Source: Desulfobulbaceae bacterium (GTDB lineage: Bacteria > Desulfobacterota > Desulfobulbia > Desulfobulbales > VMSU01). From it: a stretch of DNA of 64,000 nucleotides. The notes beneath the pieces were generated by a model that saw only the letters and a list, made by a program, of their open reading frames with translations, did no database searches and was not told the origin of the DNA. The stretch covers positions 1-64,000 of the forward strand of contig JAQUKQ010000004.1 in assembly GCA_028718985.1 (NCBI GenBank), given 5' to 3'. How positions within the stretch are numbered: the first letter of the stretch is position 1; each line of letters starts with the position of its first letter. The position numbers and the translations under genes were made by a program. This document shows, in pieces, positions 25,919-36,318 of this stretch.

Positions 25919-25947
25919 TTGACAAAGTCATATCGTTATAATATATG
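25919..25947 (+). promoter_or_regulatory. Promoter of the GntR-type gene overlapping its first ATG
   Basis: TTGACA at 25919-25924 is perfect. At 17 bases the -10 would be TATATG (25942-25947), which includes the first in-frame ATG (25945). A perfect TATAAT at 25937-25942 has only a 12-base spacer. Either way transcription would begin close to or at the ATGs at 25954 and 25957, suggesting a leaderless message. Confidence 0.5.
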
Positions 25948-25953
25948 ACAATA

Positions 25954-26715
25954 ATGATGCAAAATGAAACGACATGGTTGCACAATAAAACGGTCGATCG
26001 ATTTAACCAGGAGAAGCTCTATCTGCAGCTTACCCGGATATTTCTCGACCAGATTCTTTCGGGGCATTGGGAGATCGATAGTCAGATCCCGACGGAGGCC
26101 GAACTGTGCCAGCAGTATGGAGTGAGCAAGATTACCGTCCGCCAGGCAATCAAGAATTTGGCTGGTGATGGCTATCTTTTGAAAATCCAGGGTAAAGGGA
26201 CTTTTGTAAAAAGCAGCGATCAGACTCATGGTTTTGCCATGAAGACTCGATTTACCGACAACATGTTTGGAAAGGAGGTGCAAGTGAAGCGAGAGGTGGT
26301 GACCCGTGGCGTTCAGTCTGCTGAAAGCCCGGCTCGCGGATACCTTAAGACCCAGGAGGATATTTACTGCATTGTCAGCCAGCGAGTTGTGGAGGGACAA
26401 CCTATCTCGATGGAAGAGTCGTATATCCCTGTTTCGATGCTGCCAGGCGCAAGTGATCTCGATTTTACCGAGCGTTCACTGCTTGCCACACTCCAGGAAC
26501 GTGGAACAAAAAAGATTGGCAAGATTATTCAGACAGTTGAAATAGCAGCCGTGCATGGCCAGAACGCCAGACATCTTGGCGTGACAGAGGGTGTGCCGGG
26601 GCTGGTGATTCATCGCCTGTTTCTAGGTTCAGATGAGACCCCTGTTGCCTACACCAAATTTTCCGGAAGAAGCGACCGCTATCAATTCCAAACAGAATTT
26701 GAGCGGATCAGATAG
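25954..26715 (+). CDS. GntR/HutC-family transcriptional regulator
   Basis: About 253 residues. The N-terminal winged helix-turn-helix reads PTEAELCQQYGVSKITVRQAI followed by the wing GDGYLLKIQGKGTFV. The C-terminal UTRA ligand domain is visible in MEESYIPVSML and GVPGLVIHRLFLG. HutC-subfamily members respond to small organic effectors. ATG at 25954 (or 25957) is preferred because the first ATG, 25945, lies inside the promoter -10. No ribosome-binding site precedes any of them. A TSUP transporter starts 27 bases downstream, and the hox operon diverges upstream; either could be the target. Confidence 0.88.
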   Translation: MMQNETTWLHNKTVDRFNQEKLYLQLTRIFLDQILSGHWEIDSQIPTEAELCQQYGVSKITVRQAIKNLAGDGYLLKIQGKGTFVKSSDQTHGFAMKTRFTDNMFGKEVQVKREVVTRGVQSAESPARGYLKTQEDIYCIVSQRVVEGQPISMEESYIPVSMLPGASDLDFTERSLLATLQERGTKKIGKIIQTVEIAAVHGQNARHLGVTEGVPGLVIHRLFLGSDETPVAYTKFSGRSDRYQFQTEFERIR

Positions 26716-26742
26716 AATTTACCTTAAGGAGGAAGTGACACA

Positions 26743-27717
26743 ATGAAAACCCATCGCCCGAAATTGCTTGCGCTGTTTGCAAGTCTTATCGCTATCACCA
26801 TTATCGCAGGGTTTGCCTGCGCCAACGACCCGGCTGCGGCGGCGGCGGTTGTTGGTAGCGGATCATCGGCTATGCCATGGTGGGGTTGGCCACTCTTGTT
26901 GTTCATCGTGACGTTTATCATGGGGATCATCGCTGTTCTCGGCGGCGTCGGTGGAGGCGTCCTCTTCGTGCCGATCATTGGCGGATTTTTCCCCTTCCAT
27001 ATTGACTTCGTCAGAGGGGCAGGTTTGCTCGTCGCCTTGGCTGGAGCCCTGGCTGCAGGGCCCGGCCTTTTGAAAAAGGGCATGGCTGATCTGCGGCTCG
27101 CCATGCCGGTTGCCCTCATCGCATCTGCCTGTGCCATCGTCGGTGCCATGATCGGCTTGGCGTTGCCGGCAAACATCATCAATATAGCGCTGGGCACGAC
27201 CATCCTCGGCATTGTCGTGATCATGCTGATCGCCAAAAAATCGGAATTCCCGGAAGTCAAACAGGCCGATGCCCTCTCTACCGCCTTGCGGATCAGTGGT
27301 ATTTACCACGAGCCAAGCAGCGGCAAGGACATCAACTGGCAGATCCATCGTACCCCACAGGGGCTGGCCACCTTTATCATCATCGGTGTCATGGCCGGCA
27401 TGTTCGGTCTGGGGGCCGGTTGGGCCAACGTTCCGGTGCTTAACTTAATGATGGGGGCACCGCTTAAGGTGTCGGTTGCCACCAGTAAGTTTCTGCTGTC
27501 GATCACCGATACCTCCGCAGCTTGGATCTACATCAACAAGGGTGCGGTGTTGCCGATGATGGTGGCTCCGTCGCTGATCGGCATCATGTTGGGCTCGATC
27601 GTTGGTGTTCGGCTGTTGGCGAAAGCCAAGCCGGTTGTCATCCGAAGGGTTGTTATCGGAATATTACTGTTCTCAGGCGCCAGGGCTTTATTGAAGGGCC
27701 TGGCCATTTGGAATTAA
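26743..27717 (+). CDS. TauE/SafE (TSUP) family anion transporter
   Basis: A 324-residue membrane protein with about eight hydrophobic segments. The paired glycine-rich repeats of the TSUP fold are visible as GVGGGVLFVPIIGGFF in the N-half and GLGAGWANVPVLNLMMG in the C-half. The family exports or imports sulfite, sulfoacetate or other sulfonates and organosulfur anions. AAGGAGG lies just upstream of the ATG. It is in an operon with the GntR gene before it and a small membrane protein after it. In a sulfate reducer a sulfur-oxyanion substrate is plausible, but not shown. Confidence 0.88.
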   Translation: MKTHRPKLLALFASLIAITIIAGFACANDPAAAAAVVGSGSSAMPWWGWPLLLFIVTFIMGIIAVLGGVGGGVLFVPIIGGFFPFHIDFVRGAGLLVALAGALAAGPGLLKKGMADLRLAMPVALIASACAIVGAMIGLALPANIINIALGTTILGIVVIMLIAKKSEFPEVKQADALSTALRISGIYHEPSSGKDINWQIHRTPQGLATFIIIGVMAGMFGLGAGWANVPVLNLMMGAPLKVSVATSKFLLSITDTSAAWIYINKGAVLPMMVAPSLIGIMLGSIVGVRLLAKAKPVVIRRVVIGILLFSGARALLKGLAIWN

Positions 27718-27730
27718 GGGGGGAATCATT

Positions 27731-28144
27731 ATGACTAAGTATACTGTGACAGAAGAGCAGATCGCCTATGCCAAGATTTTGGACCTGGGGATGAAGGTGG
27801 GGCTTCTCACGCTGGTTATCTCTTTCGGGCTCTATGTTTTCGGGGTTTTAGAACCGCACGTGCCGTTGAAGGATCTGCCCAACTACTGGAAATTGCCGGT
27901 TCACGACTACCTCGTGCAGACAAAAATAGGTCAGGGATGGTCGTGGTTGTACATGCTGAACAAAGGCGATTTTTTAAACTTTATCGGTATCGCCTTTCTG
28001 GCTGGCGTCAGCATTGTCTGTTATCTGAGAATTATCCCGATGCTGTTCCGCAAGGGCGACACCATCTACGCCTTTTTGGCAATCGCCGAAGTTACCGTCC
28101 TGGTGTTGGCAGCCTCCGGTCTTCTGAAGGCAGGCGGGCACTGA
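27731..28144 (+). CDS. Small membrane protein linked to TSUP transporter
   Basis: A 137-residue protein not assigned to a named family. Hydrophobic segments are at about residues 22-40, 80-97 and 113-130, with a loop between the first two containing Trp and Tyr (YWKLPVHDY, GWSWLYML). There is no signal peptide and no Cys pair. It starts 13 bases after the TSUP gene with a GGGGGGAA ribosome-binding site, and a terminator follows. The tight link suggests an accessory subunit of the transporter. Confidence 0.75.
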   Translation: MTKYTVTEEQIAYAKILDLGMKVGLLTLVISFGLYVFGVLEPHVPLKDLPNYWKLPVHDYLVQTKIGQGWSWLYMLNKGDFLNFIGIAFLAGVSIVCYLRIIPMLFRKGDTIYAFLAIAEVTVLVLAASGLLKAGGH

Positions 28145-28169
28145 TTACTCTTTTTCCGATGTTGATCGA

Positions 28170-28199
28170 GGGGCAAGAGAACCTTTCTTGCCCCTTTTT
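28170..28199 (+). terminator. Rho-independent terminator
   Basis: GGGGCAAGA (28170-28178) pairs perfectly with TCTTGCCCC (28186-28194) around a seven-base loop, followed by TTTTT. It lies 25 bases after the small membrane protein and ends the GntR-TSUP operon. Confidence 0.92.
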
Positions 28200-28293
28200 G
28201 ATTGAGTAATTCAGCATGTCTGCGAGATACGGCAGGGGATGCTTAGTTGGTAGGGCCAGTCAAATGGCCAGGCACTATCGCCACCTATAATCT

Positions 28294-29748
28294 ATGAAAA
28301 TCAAGAATAAATTATTGGTTGGATTTGGCTTTTACACTCTGTTGGCGGTGGCCATGGGCTGTTTTATGTACCTTGAGCTGCACACGATTATCTCAAGGCT
28401 GGCCTATGTGAAGTCTGCTGATGATATTGTGAACAACGCTCTTGAGACCAGGCGCTATGAAAAGAATCTGCTGCTTTTCAACGATAAGGGCGCCATCAAT
28501 GAGTTGGACCACTACATTACCCTGTTACGAAAAAATATTGGGGTATTAAAGAAGGAGATAGTCAAGAAGATAGGAGCGCAAGAATTTGCAAAACTTTCTG
28601 GGCAGATTGACGAATATGAGCAGAGTATCCATGCGATAGCCAGGAATCCGGCGGATAAAGGGCTGATCGAAAAAGTCAGAATCATCGCCAGAGAGATACA
28701 GGCAACGATTGATGCTGTGGCTGGAGGGGAGAGGGCGTCCATCGATTACCTGTTGGCACACCTGAATCGGTCGATGATCCTGCTTCTCTTCACGATAGCC
28801 GCTTTCATCATTGCTGGCGCGATTATCAATATGAAGCTGGCCGCCAGCATATCCAATCCGATCCGCGATCTCGAAGAGGCCACCAAGAGGGTAGGTGGCG
28901 GGGATCTTTCCTGGAGGAGTGAGTTGACAGGGAGGGATGAGATCGCCTCTCTGGGAATGTCGTTTAATCGGATGCAGGAAAGATTGTCTGCTGCCAGGCA
29001 ATCACTTGAACTGGCGATCACGGAGTTGCATGAGAAGCAGGAGCAGCTTTTGGAGTCTGAGAAATTGGCCTCGCTGGGCAGGATCGCAGCAGGGGTTGCA
29101 CATGAAATCAATAACCCGCTGGCGATAGTAAATGAAAAGGCAGGCTTGATGCAGGATATCATCGGCATCTCGGATGAGTTCCAGAACAAAGACAAGTTCA
29201 TGAGTCTGATTCAGGGCATTGTTGCCAGTGTCGACAGGTGTCGTGCGATTACCCATCACCTGTTGGGGTATGCCCGACCGACCGAATCCGTTATGGAAAC
29301 CATGAGTCTGAATGATGTTCTTGCCGACGTGAAGGGCTTTCTCCATAAGGAGTTAGAGGACAAGCGCATTGCCATGGAAACGAATTTTCCGGTCGATCTC
29401 CCCCAGATAAGGAGCGATAAAGGTCAGCTTGAACAGGTAGTTTTAAATATTGTGAGGAACGCGATTGAGGCGGTGAGCGAAGGTGGTCATATCAACATTT
29501 CATCGGGCATGAAAGATAGCAAAACAGCCCTGATCTCCATAGCGGACGATGGACCTGGAATCCCACAAGACAAGGTCAAGCATCTCTTTGAGCCTTTCTT
29601 TACGACCAAAGGCAAGAAGGGGACTGGGCTCGGACTCTTCGTTTCGTATGGGATTGTGAAAAAGTTGGGGGGCATGATAACGGCAGAGAGTAAATCTGGT
29701 CGAGGGACAACCTTTACGATTCAAATTCCGGTGGATTTTAGGCAATGA
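28294..29748 (+). CDS. Membrane sensor histidine kinase (HAMP)
   Basis: A 484-residue kinase. Membrane segments at about 8-27 and 158-180 flank a helical extracytoplasmic sensor. A HAMP domain follows (SNPIRDLEEATKRVGGGDL), then a HisKA box with His270 in AGVAHEINNPLA, and a complete HATPase domain (N-box VLNIVRNAIEAV, G1 DDGPGIP, G2 GTGLGLF). The receiver gene overlaps its end by four bases. No Shine-Dalgarno precedes the ATG; TATAAT sits immediately before it (28286-28291) and an inverted repeat GGCCA-GTCAAA-TGGCC at 28254-28269. The stimulus is unknown; flanking TSUP genes hint at sulfur anions. Confidence 0.93.
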   Translation: MKIKNKLLVGFGFYTLLAVAMGCFMYLELHTIISRLAYVKSADDIVNNALETRRYEKNLLLFNDKGAINELDHYITLLRKNIGVLKKEIVKKIGAQEFAKLSGQIDEYEQSIHAIARNPADKGLIEKVRIIAREIQATIDAVAGGERASIDYLLAHLNRSMILLLFTIAAFIIAGAIINMKLAASISNPIRDLEEATKRVGGGDLSWRSELTGRDEIASLGMSFNRMQERLSAARQSLELAITELHEKQEQLLESEKLASLGRIAAGVAHEINNPLAIVNEKAGLMQDIIGISDEFQNKDKFMSLIQGIVASVDRCRAITHHLLGYARPTESVMETMSLNDVLADVKGFLHKELEDKRIAMETNFPVDLPQIRSDKGQLEQVVLNIVRNAIEAVSEGGHINISSGMKDSKTALISIADDGPGIPQDKVKHLFEPFFTTKGKKGTGLGLFVSYGIVKKLGGMITAESKSGRGTTFTIQIPVDFRQ

Positions 29749-30155
29749 CAGAAGTTCCTCAGGAGAGAACACGTGTTTTGATTGTCGATGACGAGGTCGA
29801 GTTTGCCTCGACGCTTGCCGAGAGATTGCAACTGCGGGGGTATGACGTAACCGCGGTGTATTGTGTCGAAGATGCCTTTAATGCTATCAGGCAGTCGCCA
29901 CCGGACGTCTTGTTGCTTGATCTTATAATGCCCGGCACGAGTGGCATGGAGGCGTTGATGACCGTTAAGAGTGCTGCTCCGGAAATCTTTGTTGTACTAT
30001 TGACTGGGCATCTGGACATTGAAAAAGAGCTTGAAGGAATGGGTCTTGAGAATTGTAATTTTATCATGAAGCCTGTCGATATCTCTAAACTGATCACGAT
30101 GATCGATGGGGCAACGCGAGAGATGCCAAGCGAAAAGCGATTGGAGGCGTCATGA
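29745..30155 (+). CDS. Single-domain response regulator
   Basis: A 136-residue receiver without output domain. Acidic pocket residues are in LIVDDEVEF, the phosphoacceptor is Asp59 in LLLDLIMPG, the switch Thr is in LLTGH, and the conserved Lys is in MKPVD. It overlaps the kinase before it by four bases (ATGA) and the kinase-like gene after it by four bases, so the three proteins are probably made in fixed ratio. Without a DNA-binding domain it must signal to a protein partner or act as a phosphate relay. Confidence 0.93.
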   Translation: MTEVPQERTRVLIVDDEVEFASTLAERLQLRGYDVTAVYCVEDAFNAIRQSPPDVLLLDLIMPGTSGMEALMTVKSAAPEIFVVLLTGHLDIEKELEGMGLENCNFIMKPVDISKLITMIDGATREMPSEKRLEAS

Positions 30156-30805
30156 ATTTGGATGAAGGGTCACTTGTCAGGATCAACCAGCTGAAATTCA
30201 TAGGAAAGATCCTGTCGGTGTATACCCATGACCTGAATAACCAACTGGGAACTATTAAAGAAGCAGCTGGGCTGATGGAAGATATTATCGAGCATGGTAA
30301 CGCTAAGAATACCAGGGTTCAAGAAGAACTTGCCAAACCTCTGCACTCAATTGATCGCCGGGTCGGGGCCGCCGCATTCTTGACCAATACCCTGAGCGTC
30401 TTTGGCCGTGGGATGGCAGGAGAGACAAGTTCTCTTAATCTCAAAGACAGTGTTGGGGAACTTCTCGTATTAGTAAAAAGGATGGCAGCTCAAAGGCGGG
30501 TCGAATTTGTCACGGATTTTCAGCACGATATCCCTGCTGTGACTGCCGACCCTATAATGTTCCAATTTTTGCTGTTCTGTCTCATGGAAGAGCACTTGAT
30601 GGGACTCAAAGCCAAAGGTCGCCTGATTTTCAAGATTACGCGTGCTGGAAAGGTCTTATCGGTCGTGATCCTCCCAGAGGGGGAAGTGGATTCAGTTGAA
30701 GAAAAGCGGACCTTTCCTGAGGGGATGGCGCAATTGATTGCGAAAACTCATGGTTTCAGCATAGCCGTCAAGAGTCGTGAGAGTTGCATCATGTTTCATG
30801 TGTAA
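30152..30805 (+). CDS. Kinase-like protein with degenerate ATPase domain
   Basis: A 217-residue soluble protein. Near the N-terminus is a recognisable phosphoacceptor helix with His26 in VYTHDLNNQLG, like the H-box of AHDFNN-type kinases. The following region aligns in position with a HATPase domain, but the N-box is replaced (FCLMEEHLMGL, no Asn) and neither DxGxG nor GxGLGL is present. It should therefore not bind ATP in the usual way. By inference it works as a dimeric phosphotransfer module, in the manner of Spo0B or ChpT, between the two receivers encoded on either side. It overlaps the preceding gene by four bases. Confidence 0.75.
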   Translation: MNLDEGSLVRINQLKFIGKILSVYTHDLNNQLGTIKEAAGLMEDIIEHGNAKNTRVQEELAKPLHSIDRRVGAAAFLTNTLSVFGRGMAGETSSLNLKDSVGELLVLVKRMAAQRRVEFVTDFQHDIPAVTADPIMFQFLLFCLMEEHLMGLKAKGRLIFKITRAGKVLSVVILPEGEVDSVEEKRTFPEGMAQLIAKTHGFSIAVKSRESCIMFHV

Positions 30806-30897
30806 TTCAAGCTGCATGCCGTTAGGAAAGATATCGTCAGGATACGGGGTAATCGAGCAGTTAGGGGAACTTAAATTATTTTAAAGGGAGATTTTTT

Positions 30898-31353
30898 ATG
30901 AGTAAGAAGGAGATAAAAGTCCTTTTGGTGGATGATGAGGTTGAGTTTGTCGATACGCTTGGCCAAAGATTGAAGATGCGTGGCTTGAAGGTCGATATCG
31001 TCTATGATGGTGAGCAGGCCTTGTCCTTTGTCAAGAAGACAGCGCCCGATGTCATTGTTTTGGATCTTAAAATGCCGGGTTTGGACGGCATGGAGGTGCT
31101 TCGAGAGGTCAAGAAGTTGAAGCCTGATGTTCAGGTTATTATTCTGACCGGGCACGGTACGGATAAGGATGATGAGCAGGCTAGGAAGCTCGGCGGGTTT
31201 GATTTTATTCGGAAGCCAGCGGACATAGACCTTCTGGTGGTCAAAATAAAAGAGGCGTTTTCTGAAAAAATTGAACGTGCGATGACGGCTATTACCTTTG
31301 CCGAGGCAGGGGTTTTTGAGACGGCGGAGAGAATAATCAAGAAAGATGAATAG
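30898..31353 (+). CDS. Single-domain response regulator with C-terminal helix
   Basis: A 151-residue receiver. LLVDDEVEF, phosphoacceptor Asp56 in VLDLKMPGLDG, Thr in ILTGHG and Lys in RKPAD are intact. About 25 residues follow the receiver fold, including the segment TFAEAGVFETAERI, which probably forms an extra helix for partner binding; no DNA-binding domain is present. AAAGGGAG precedes the ATG. The 92-base gap after the kinase-like gene has no terminator, so it is probably the last gene of the signalling operon. Confidence 0.92.
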   Translation: MSKKEIKVLLVDDEVEFVDTLGQRLKMRGLKVDIVYDGEQALSFVKKTAPDVIVLDLKMPGLDGMEVLREVKKLKPDVQVIILTGHGTDKDDEQARKLGGFDFIRKPADIDLLVVKIKEAFSEKIERAMTAITFAEAGVFETAERIIKKDE

Positions 31354-31625: not shown

Positions 31626-32426
31626 TTACCCTAAAAGGCTTACCAGCATCCGAGTGCCGACGATCAGGAGCATCAAGGCGAAAACTCTTTTCAGCTTTGC
31701 CACTGGCAGGCTGTGTGCCAGGCGGACACCGAGCGGGGCAGTGAGCATGCTGGTGGAGACGATGCCAAGGAGTGCCGGCAGATAGACGTATCCCAGTGAG
31801 TAGGATGGGAGGCCTTGGGCCGACAAGCTGTTGGCGATATAGCCTATAGCGCCGGCAACGGCGATGGGGAAGCCGATGGCGGCTGAGGTGCCGATAGCAT
31901 GGTGTAGGGCCAGGTTACACCAGACCATGAAGGGGACGGAGAGCGTGCCGCCACCGATTCCCACCAGGCTAGAGATTACACCGATCCCTCCACCAACCCC
32001 AAACATGGCGACCTGTCCGGGGAACTCCCGCGAGGGGGCGGGCTTCTTGTCAAGGAGCATCTGCAAGGCGACGAAGTAGAGGAATGCAACAAAAAAACCT
32101 TTCAGGAAGGTGCTTGGCAATCGCGAGGCCAGGCAGGTGCCGAGAAATGTCCCGACCAGGATGCCGGGCACGATGCGGCGTACGATATCCCAGCGTACCG
32201 CTCCGCGCTTATGGTGGGCGCGGAAGCTTGAGATCGAGGTGAAGATGATGCTGGACATGGAGGTGGCAAGCGCAATGTGCATGATGAACTCAGGCGGGAT
32301 CATTTGTCTGTTTAAGCAAAATACGAGCATGGGTACGATCACTAAGCCCCCGCCAATGCCGAGCAGTCCGGCCAGGATGCCGGCCACCAGACCAACGCCG
32401 ATATAGGTGAGAAGAATAAGGGTCAT
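31626..32426 (-). CDS. TauE/SafE (TSUP) family transporter
   Basis: A 266-residue TSUP protein with about eight membrane segments and the two duplicated motifs GLLGIGGGLVIVPMLVF (N-half) and SLVGIGGGTLSVPFMVW (C-half). It is shorter than the TSUP at 26743 and has typical paired repeats, so it belongs to a different branch. With that gene it brackets the four-gene signalling operon, on the opposite strand. The 272 bases between it and the last receiver gene hold no gene or clear terminator. The substrate is probably an anion; not known. Confidence 0.88.
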   Translation of the reverse strand: MTLILLTYIGVGLVAGILAGLLGIGGGLVIVPMLVFCLNRQMIPPEFIMHIALATSMSSIIFTSISSFRAHHKRGAVRWDIVRRIVPGILVGTFLGTCLASRLPSTFLKGFFVAFLYFVALQMLLDKKPAPSREFPGQVAMFGVGGGIGVISSLVGIGGGTLSVPFMVWCNLALHHAIGTSAAIGFPIAVAGAIGYIANSLSAQGLPSYSLGYVYLPALLGIVSTSMLTAPLGVRLAHSLPVAKLKRVFALMLLIVGTRMLVSLLG

Positions 32427-33720: not shown

Positions 33721-33867
33721 GGGGTGTTCGGGGCACACCCAATAGCTAACCCTGCAACATGAACCATAGGAATCTGAGATGCTTGGCGCTATATAAATCG
33801 AAATGGCTTGAGTATCAAGCTGTTGTAATTGTCGGTTGGCCAGCGTTGGTCAAATGTGGTATACGTA

Positions 33868-36318
33868 ATGTGGCATGAAAATACACTGGCCGTGATGATG
33901 ACCGGAGACTATCGGTCAATTATTCTTCCTTTACTCCCCCAAAACATCCCCTTGGTGAAACCACAAACAAATATTTCTCAAGCAGCATCCTCCGACGGTG
34001 TCGACCAAGAGCGGCCCGACTGCGCGGAAGAGCGGTTGCAACGACTGAGTCGCCTTAACGAGCAAATTGTCAACAGTGTTGGTGAGGGGATCATCGTCTA
34101 TGGCCCCGATCTGCGTTATTTGGCCTGGAATCCTACGATGGAGAGGATCAGCGGCAAGAAGGCCTCTGATGTCCTGGGTCGTCATCCCCTGGAGGTATTT
34201 CCTCACCTGCAGGATGTCGGCGTTATCGATCGGCTGGAGAGGACATTGCGGGGCGAGGTGTGCCCGCCTCTTGAGTTTCACGCCCTGACCGTCTCCGGGA
34301 TCGATGCCTGGTCCTCTGATTCCTGCTCGCCACTGTACAACGACAAGGGCGAAATCATTGGCGTCATTGGTATCGTCCGAGATATAACTGCCAACCGTAA
34401 GGGGGAAGAGGCCCTTCGAAAGAGTAGAGAGAAGTTCCGGACCCTCTATGATCAGACCCCCATCATGCTTCATTCCATTGACCGCTTTGGGGATTTGATC
34501 GATGTTAACAGCTATTGGTTGAAGACCATGGGCTATGAGCGAAGCGAGGTGCTGGGCCACAAGGTTATCGACTTTTACAGCGAAAGCTCGCGCCAGTACG
34601 CTTTAGAAATTATTCAGCCCGCCTTCTTTCGTGATGGTTTTTGCAAGAATGTTCCGTACCAGTTTGTCAAGAAGAACGGCGAATTGCTTGATGTCCTCTT
34701 GTCGGCCAGCAGCGAGCAGGATGCGGAGGGCAATGTTGTCCGTTCCCGGGCGGTGATCGAGAATATCACCGAGCGCAAACGGTCAGAGGAGCACCTGCGT
34801 CAAAGAGAGCAGCTTATCCGGAGCATCCTCGATAATGTTGATGAAGGGTTCGTCCTTCTCGACCGGGAGTATCGGGTTTTGTCGGCCAATAGGTCGTATT
34901 GCCGGCAGAATAAAGCTGGAGATCAGGACGTTATTGGCAGATACTGTTACGAGGTTGCTCGCCAGTACAGCCGCCCGTGTTATGAGTACGGCGAGGGTTG
35001 TGTCATTCGGCACGTTTTTGAGACCGGCAAGCCTTTCCAGTCCGTCCATACCCAAGAGGATTCTCAAGGAGAGACCCGGCATGTTGAGACCCGAGGGTTT
35101 CCGCTGTTTGATGCCGCAGGCCAGCTGACCTCCGCCATCAAGGTCATTCATGACGTGACCGACCACTACCGATTGGAGGCCGAACAGATCAAAACCGAGA
35201 AGCTTGAGGCCATCGGTGCCTTGGCGGGGGGTATTGCCCACGACTTCAACAACCTGTTGCAGGGGGTGTTCGGTTATCTCAGCATGGCGAGGCTTGCGAT
35301 CGATAATAAGGACGAGGCACTCGCCGCCCTCGAGCAGGCAGAAAAGGCCCTTGGCCTGTCGATCAAACTGACCATGCAGCTTCTGACCTTCTCAAAAGGC
35401 GGCAAGCCGGTGAAAAACCGGGCCGACATCCGCCAGGTCATCGAAAACTCGGCCAAGTTTGCCTTGAGCGGTTCGAAGTGCGGGTGGCATCTGCGGATGG
35501 CTGAAGACTTGTGGCAGGCCGAGGTAGACGAAGGCCAGATCGGTCAAGTTATCCAGAATATCGTTCTGAATGGCGTGCAGGCAATGGACGAGGGAGGGAG
35601 GATCGAGATTTCGGCCGACAATTTCCAGGCCCCTGGTCGAGACCTGCCTCCTGAACTGGCGGCAGGGGAGTATATCCGGATCATGATCAGCGATAATGGC
35701 CCTGGCATCCCCTCTCACCTGCTTGGAAAAATATTTGATCCCTACTTTACAACCAAGGCCGAAGGCAGCGGTCTCGGCCTTGCCACCTCCTACTCCATTA
35801 TCAGCAAGCACGACGGGTTGATCGATGTTCACTCCGAGACGGGACGGGGCACAACCTTCTTTGTGTATCTTCCTGCAATGCGTGGGGAGGGCCGTGGAGC
35901 ACTCTCTGCGACGGCAGCCTGTGTCGATGAAGCCGTTACTCAGAAATCAGGGAAGATCCTGGTCATGGACGACGATCAAGTCATCCGCGATTTGGCGGTA
36001 TTGATGATCAAGGCGCTCGGTCACGAGGTAGAGTCTGCCGAGCATGGAGAGGAGGCTATCAGGAGATATCGCCTGGCCATGGAGGCTGGCAAGCCTTTTG
36101 ATGTGGTCGTTCTCGACCTAACTATTCGTGGTGGCATGGGTGGTTTCGACACCGTCCGCCACCTCCAGGAGATCGATCCAAAGGTTAAGGCCGTAGTATC
36201 GAGCGGCTACTCCGATGGAAACACTCTCGCCGAATACAAGCAATTAGGCTTTGCGGCCTGTCTGCATAAACCCTATTCGCTCGCGGAGCTTAAGGGAGCG
36301 CTTAAAACCCTTGTCTGA
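33868..36318 (+). CDS. Multi-PAS hybrid histidine kinase with C-terminal receiver
   Basis: About 816 residues, no membrane segment. Three PAS domains lie in the first ~430 residues; linkers between them carry the PAC-type ITANRKGEE and ITERKRSEE. A HisKA box (GGIAHDFNNLLQG), a full HATPase (NGVQAMDEGG, DNGPGIP, GSGLGL) and a receiver (LVMDDDQ, phosphoacceptor in VVLDLTIRGG, KPYS) follow. The third PAS contains several Cys residues around YSRPCYEYGEGCVIRH, so redox or metal sensing is possible. The start is uncertain: ATGs at 33868, 33892 and 33895 and a TTG at 33829 all lack ribosome-binding sites. Confidence 0.9.
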   Translation: MWHENTLAVMMTGDYRSIILPLLPQNIPLVKPQTNISQAASSDGVDQERPDCAEERLQRLSRLNEQIVNSVGEGIIVYGPDLRYLAWNPTMERISGKKASDVLGRHPLEVFPHLQDVGVIDRLERTLRGEVCPPLEFHALTVSGIDAWSSDSCSPLYNDKGEIIGVIGIVRDITANRKGEEALRKSREKFRTLYDQTPIMLHSIDRFGDLIDVNSYWLKTMGYERSEVLGHKVIDFYSESSRQYALEIIQPAFFRDGFCKNVPYQFVKKNGELLDVLLSASSEQDAEGNVVRSRAVIENITERKRSEEHLRQREQLIRSILDNVDEGFVLLDREYRVLSANRSYCRQNKAGDQDVIGRYCYEVARQYSRPCYEYGEGCVIRHVFETGKPFQSVHTQEDSQGETRHVETRGFPLFDAAGQLTSAIKVIHDVTDHYRLEAEQIKTEKLEAIGALAGGIAHDFNNLLQGVFGYLSMARLAIDNKDEALAALEQAEKALGLSIKLTMQLLTFSKGGKPVKNRADIRQVIENSAKFALSGSKCGWHLRMAEDLWQAEVDEGQIGQVIQNIVLNGVQAMDEGGRIEISADNFQAPGRDLPPELAAGEYIRIMISDNGPGIPSHLLGKIFDPYFTTKAEGSGLGLATSYSIISKHDGLIDVHSETGRGTTFFVYLPAMRGEGRGALSATAACVDEAVTQKSGKILVMDDDQVIRDLAVLMIKALGHEVESAEHGEEAIRRYRLAMEAGKPFDVVVLDLTIRGGMGGFDTVRHLQEIDPKVKAVVSSGYSDGNTLAEYKQLGFAACLHKPYSLAELKGALKTLV

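Follow-up and report, generated by a model that had tools for sequence, protein, structure and literature searches.

What can a protein do that has kept the phosphoacceptor histidine of a sensor kinase, has lost the boxes with which a kinase handles ATP and is encoded between two receivers? This question is raised by SHORT, a candidate ATP-dead, kinase-derived histidine phosphotransferase of 217 amino acids (30152..30805, + strand) in a 64,000-nucleotide stretch of a Desulfobulbaceae contig (JAQUKQ010000004.1), hereafter the window. Upstream of SHORT are a membrane sensor histidine kinase (28294..29748, +), which Pfam describes as HAMP-HisKA-HATPase_c and in which our alignment finds every ATP box intact, and REC1 (29745..30155, +), a single-domain receiver of 136 amino acids in a Spo0F-like position (Response_reg, E 3.4e-22) with its phosphorylation-site residues intact. 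Downstream is REC2 (30898..31353, +), a single-domain receiver of 151 amino acids with no output domain (Response_reg, E 1e-28) and a REC1-type alpha1 signature, which is likely the terminal or the next receiver. The kinase and REC1 overlap by four bases, an ATGA stop/start overlap of the same length joins REC1 to SHORT, and REC2 starts 92 bases downstream of the end of SHORT. The open reading frame and its neighbours confirm the original prediction of a kinase-like protein with a retained H-box, placed between two receivers and overlapping the preceding one by four bases; the H-box residues are His26, Asp27 and Asn30.

A Pfam search of the window's SHORT matched no domain, and NCBIfam kinase models matched it weakly and far below their cut-offs (AtoS, E 7e-7, residues 8-167). 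The profiles of SHORT and of the neighbouring kinases nevertheless align over 209 columns (E 1.9e-39), so that SHORT is a kinase core and not a convergent helical protein, which upholds the proposed kinase ancestry. We aligned 56 SHORT proteins (55 relatives and that of the window) with 44 neighbouring kinases. The phosphoacceptor His is found in 55 of the 56, an acid (E or D) at H+1 in 54 and Asn at H+4 in 55, as compared with 44/44 kinases at each of these positions. The N-box Asn is present in 0/56 and GxGxG in 0/56 (the proteins of loci L063 and L075 end at contig ends, so that at most 55/56 could show the former and at most 54/56 the latter), and the first Asp of DxGxG in 1/56, against all 44 kinases in each case. 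One SHORT protein (L040) does contain a loose DxGxG string, but away from the G1 position. Pro at H+5, universal in the 44 kinases, is absent from all 56 SHORT proteins, 50 of which have His instead. In the window, the H-box reads T-H-D-L-N-N-Q-L, with His26 as the putative phosphoacceptor (codon 30227..30229, +), and alignment with the neighbouring kinase shows no N-box Asn, F-box or ATP lid and neither of the G-boxes; the absence of the N-box Asn, DxGxG and GxGLGL had been noticed at the outset. Of the features of active HisKA kinases, SHORT thus shows the H-box His in a DHp domain and lacks the N, G1, F and G2 boxes. Among our alignments, A1 was made without L016, A2 without L052, L053, L063, L074, L075, L078 and L081, and A3 comprises 35 of the 42 listed neighbour-kinase references together with the window.

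A single-chain model of SHORT, built from a 46-row alignment and of high confidence by both pLDDT and pTM, consists of a DHp helical hairpin (residues 5-89; 30164..30418, +) with predicted helices at residues 5-48, where His26 lies in the phosphoacceptor helix as expected, and 54-89, followed by a Bergerat-like alpha/beta domain (residues 93-216; 30428..30799, +) that lacks the N-box, G-boxes and lid. Between the G1 strand (ending at 176) and the last helix (starting at 192), the model has 15 residues and no lid, whereas a control model of the window's own kinase core, with a good pLDDT and an intermediate pTM, has 26 poorly ordered residues there, including the F-box helix; the final helix measures 13 residues in the control and 8 in SHORT. 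An intact ATP pocket was not seen in the SHORT model. One could still suppose that SHORT is a functional, highly divergent kinase with an unusual mode of nucleotide binding, as a Bergerat-like fold is retained under purifying selection, but every copy long enough to cover that region lacks the ATP-contact boxes and the lid, and the SHORT model has none of the lid seen in the control, making such a kinase extremely improbable.

The best structural matches of the SHORT model include WalK/YycG, HK853, NtrB, DivL, ZraS and ThkA (Z 13.6-15.2 for the best 14 rows), many of these 14 covering mainly the C-terminal domain with an rmsd of about 2-3 angstrom. Neither ChpT nor Spo0B appears in the 50 chains that the structural comparison listed, or among the Foldseek matches listed. 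That DivL (4q20) and RetS appear among the matches of Foldseek and the structural comparison brings up another reading, in which SHORT is a pseudokinase that tunes the neighbouring kinase by forming a DHp-bundle heterodimer, like RetS on GacS and DivL on CckA. The homology of SHORT to the DHp-CA core of its cognate kinase, with which it shares an operon, is consistent with such tuning. DivL has Tyr at the phosphoacceptor site. The near-absolute conservation of the His, the H+1 acid and the H+4 Asn in SHORT, and its conserved placement after a receiver gene, argue instead for phosphochemistry, and we regard the tuning role as improbable.

Relatives in many genomes led us to reject the idea that SHORT is confined to the window. 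Among 96 related genomes, the best relative shares 68% identity (genome G039) and the others 24-34%, and H26, N30, L32, I35, E37, G40, L41, D44, R70 and E103 are invariant in 22 aligned members. Scanning this 22-member alignment against named genomes gave 54 loci, 52 of them with at least one SHORT (55 SHORT ORFs in total), while at L077 and L080 the match lay only in a kinase. The hosts are Desulfobulbaceae, Desulfocapsaceae, Desulfurivibrionaceae, Nitrospirae/Thermodesulfovibrionia and a few others. Within the window's order, Desulfobulbales, a high-scoring SHORT is found in 53 of 257 genomes (54 rows of at least 156 bits, counted from the listing). Another subfamily, more remote in sequence (115-135 bits), likewise has the HK-REC-SHORT arrangement, and none of seven of its proteins inspected by eye (from seven genomes, one of them of the window's genus) contains DxGxG/GxGxG. 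A plasmid search gave no match. The profile search for related pseudo-kinases proposed at the outset thus returned 55 relatives, and SHORT is no isolated degenerate kinase. Among the open-access papers listed in our literature searches, none described a family of this kind from these organisms.

SHORT is under purifying selection, with dN/dS over nine pairs of 0.18-0.40 for the whole gene. The values for the C-terminal domain (0.17-0.48) indicate a continuing need for the dead ATPase domain. This constraint refutes the reading of SHORT as a decaying pseudogene of a duplicated kinase, to which we had assigned next to no probability. What might suggest decay is the closest relative, in G039 (L110:3973-6247), where SHORT and REC2 are kept, the kinase and REC1 are lost (about 30 bases of the end of REC1 still align) and a transposase-like ORF is inserted between SHORT and REC2. 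Even so, dN/dS between the SHORT genes of the window and G039 is 0.19, and open frames and a conserved His are maintained across two phyla.

The history of the locus appears to involve more than one phylum. A rapidly built tree with 105 rows (without L063 and L075, which are cut by contig ends, and without the second copies of L074 and L078) places all 52 SHORT rows to one side of a single branch, with low support for the split (12), and the SHORT of the window among 19 SHORT rows (SH-aLRT 95) that are Nitrospirota wherever a phylum is shown. The gene block of the window begins with a GntR/UTRA transcription regulator (25945..26715, +; Pfam), followed by a TauE/SafE (TSUP) permease (26743..27717, +; Pfam) and a 137-amino-acid protein of unassigned family (27731..28144, +; no Pfam match). 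In L031, on a Nitrospirota contig, the entire block GntR-TauE-137aa-HK-REC1-SHORT-REC2-REC2b is syntenic with window positions 25945-31353 and nearest to it in sequence; the permease and the 137-amino-acid protein are also syntenic in L035, an unplaced Hainich locus. The best matches of the window's kinase, REC1, SHORT, REC2, TauE, 137-amino-acid protein and GntR regulator all fall in Nitrospirota or in L035, and the block 25945-31353 was therefore likely acquired by horizontal transfer into this Desulfobulbales genome. Beyond the block, a second TauE/SafE permease (31626-32426, -) converges on REC2, and a multi-PAS hybrid kinase (33829-36318, +) lies further on.

The gene order around SHORT is conserved. 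The arrangement HK-REC-SHORT accompanies 45 of the 55 SHORT genes, with three more cut by contig ends and seven that differ. At L053 (4035-6651), the kinase and SHORT are found without a receiver between them, and the leader resembles that of REC1 in L057; REC1 seems to have been deleted there. L074 and L078 have the variant order HK-SHORT-REC-REC-SHORT, and in their later SHORT copies Ser replaces the phosphoacceptor His (L074) or the H+4 Asn is lost (L078). The phosphorylation site of REC1 is intact throughout (phospho-Asp, Thr/Ser and Lys each 50/50), and the phospho-Asp of REC2 is kept in 38/39. Within 1.2 kb of SHORT, 24/55 cases have an additional receiver on the same strand, and 14 have two or more. 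Of the 31 loci with 4 kb or more of sequence to either side, 23 have another single-domain receiver and 8 have none. The C-terminal end of REC2 in the window (31270-31350) carries a motif like TAITFAEAGVFETAERII, which also ends many downstream receivers at SHORT loci and is repeated in a small stand-alone ORF adjoining SHORT at L003:2484-2804.

The 8 of 31 well-covered loci that have no second receiver nearby would be expected if SHORT were a phosphatase or phosphate sink for phosphorylated REC1 (perhaps also REC2), acting through H-[D/E]-x-x-N with no downstream receiver phosphorylated. In HisKA kinases this motif serves phosphatase activity, and SHORT keeps its H, the D/E at H+1 and the N at H+4. 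There is also a precedent, as PhyP/PhyT was initially proposed as a phosphatase (PMC5898713). Such a role leaves aside, however, the one or two more receivers found directly downstream at many loci (one in the window), and REC2 carries the docking signature of REC1; we consider it unlikely, though less so than the kinase-tuning role.

This docking signature emerged from a comparison of the interacting surfaces. According to the account of kinase-receiver complexes in the ChpT paper (PMC3433190), receivers bind to the face of DHp helix 1 below the His. In the corresponding segment (H+7 to H+20), SHORT is 52% identical to its cognate kinase (44 pairs) and 15% identical to 22 other kinases encoded by the window's genome (26 own-genome loci, of which 21 yielded the segment, plus the PAS kinase of the window). 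Gly at H+14, Leu at H+15 and Asp at H+18 are present in 44/44 kinases each and in 55/56, 52/56 and 55/56 SHORT proteins, respectively. We sought co-variation of these docking residues within a locus and found none, the SHORT-kinase identity being 0.518 at the same locus and 0.511 between different loci; part of the likeness may come from common ancestry. On the receiver side, an alpha1 signature that follows the acidic pair, with F/Y at +4 and R at both +11 and +15, is complete in 46/48 REC1 and 30/37 REC2. In 21 control receivers of the window's genome (20 high-scoring of 116 own-genome matches, one with an internal stop being skipped, plus the receiver of the PAS kinase), the three residues never occur together, F at +4 being found once, R at +11 twice and R at +15 once. 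Within the window, the alpha1 helices of REC1 and REC2 share 56% identity, and their average identity to those of the controls is 24% and 22%. A relay requires receivers of overlapping specificity and a phosphotransferase within that overlap (PMC6136694).

The conserved gene order, the intact receivers and the shared docking residues favour a phosphotransferase, and we consider it likely that SHORT serves a relay of four proteins as a Spo0B/ChpT-like phosphotransferase. With the His kept, the ATP parts lost and a position between two receivers, the passing of phosphate from receiver to receiver is its most likely activity. In the model that we propose, SHORT would go back to a duplicated DHp-CA core of the neighbouring kinase. 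The membrane kinase would autophosphorylate with ATP and phosphorylate REC1, whose phosphoryl group would then be handed to His26 of a presumed SHORT dimer; phosphorylated SHORT would in turn phosphorylate REC2, the putative acceptor. Both the homodimer and the direction of transfer are part of this proposal. The signature common to REC1 and REC2 would mean that the kinase could also phosphorylate both directly.

Because both receivers are without an output domain, the output of the cassette is probably protein-protein control. Its neighbours at L031-L084 (names resting on one example each) are often transporters and their regulators, with CitMHS and Na-sulfate symporter types at 16 loci each, and also CBS proteins, DUF1538 and P-II; a Nitro_FeMo-Co-like small gene directly precedes the kinase in 26 loci. 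In Desulfovibrio, the cluster DVU0251-DVU0245 is described as comprising a TauE permease, a conserved hypothetical protein, a histidine kinase and a single receiver (PMC4001038). It affects nitrate resistance, and its authors suggested thiosulfate transport (PMC4001038). That description lists no phosphotransferase or second receiver, and the likeness to the window is one of gene content as described; by this analogy, the cluster may offer a clue to what enters or leaves the cassette as input or output. A broader and tentative reading, which we think rather doubtful as a whole, is that of a widespread, uncharacterised phosphorelay cassette of Desulfobacterota and Nitrospirota, made of four proteins, with a kinase-derived and independently evolved phosphotransferase and with terminal receivers that, lacking an output domain, would act directly on membrane transport and not on transcription. 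The transport neighbours behind it are of the TSUP, Na+/H+ antiporter and Na+-symporter types. The SHORT lineage extends over dozens of sulfate-reducing and Nitrospirota genomes. Our results offer a candidate function for an ORF family without a Pfam domain, as is the case in the window, and the compact cassette is well suited to phosphotransfer profiling in vitro.

To our knowledge, phosphotransferases derived from kinases have been described in a small number of pathways (Spo0B, ChpT, PhyT). Spo0B of Bacillus subtilis, for which a kinase-like origin has been proposed, acts in a relay of four proteins, where it links Spo0F, a single-domain receiver, to a second receiver, Spo0A (PMC6136694, PMC12826061). 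SHORT would resemble it in its placement between a single-domain receiver and a second receiver and in the number of proteins. The Spo0 genes, however, are dispersed, whereas the kinase, REC1, SHORT and REC2 adjoin; Spo0A has a DNA-binding output, unlike REC2; and Spo0B is encoded near L21, L27 and Obg, SHORT near TauE, the kinase and receivers. The 18 families that 22 SHORT members matched do not include SPOB_a/SPOB_ab, and SPOB_ab matched one of 46 members (E 0.042; best 25 of 36 families listed). Neither was found in the window's own genome by a search that recovers B. subtilis as a control. ChpT of Caulobacter crescentus has, like the SHORT model, a DHp and a Bergerat-like domain with the lid lost. 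It is described as dimeric, without ATP binding, with its lid replaced and its His phosphorylated from a receiver (PMC3433190). In that system the phosphate comes from the receiver of the hybrid kinase CckA, whereas here REC1 is a separate gene and the kinase at 28294-29748 has no receiver domain. ChpT also retains Pro38 at H+5, where the SHORT of the window has Gln and its relatives mostly His. PF10090 (HPTransfase) was likewise absent from the 18 families with matches in the 22 members, and in the window's own genome it matched another ORF and not SHORT, in a search whose control finds Caulobacter. PhyT/PhyP of Sphingomonas melonis is a degenerate kinase reported to transfer phosphate from the single-domain receiver SdrG to another regulator (PMC5898713). 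SHORT is likewise a degenerate kinase and a candidate phosphotransferase from a single-domain receiver, but PhyT has the HRxxN motif (HWE/HisKA_2) and a membrane sensor part, whereas SHORT has HDxxN (H26-D27-L28-N29-N30) and begins with the DHp.

As the family features tested were not found in SHORT, we reject its membership in the Spo0B, ChpT or PhyT families; what is supported of the original prediction is that it works like Spo0B/ChpT, and strict membership in those families is not. A monomeric HPt domain (PF01627) was also rejected, the window's SHORT having no Pfam match and a fold of DHp plus alpha/beta domain. Relays in which HK, RR1, HPt and RR2 are independent proteins have been classified as architecture M1 (PMC8199921), and the examples in a 2025 review include Spo0 and CckA-ChpT-CtrA (PMC12471899). 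The cassette differs from M1 relays in that its phosphotransferase is kinase-derived and without a Pfam domain match, so that domain-based surveys would miss it. The novelty seems to lie in this phosphotransferase lineage, in how often it occurs in Desulfobulbales and Nitrospirota, in its sharing an operon with the parent kinase and in the receivers without outputs. Because the features tested exclude Spo0B, ChpT and PhyT membership, SHORT looks like a further lineage of kinase-derived phosphotransferases of this type, and, if so, a lineage still encoded beside its parent kinase would give a direct view of a two-component system growing into a phosphorelay.
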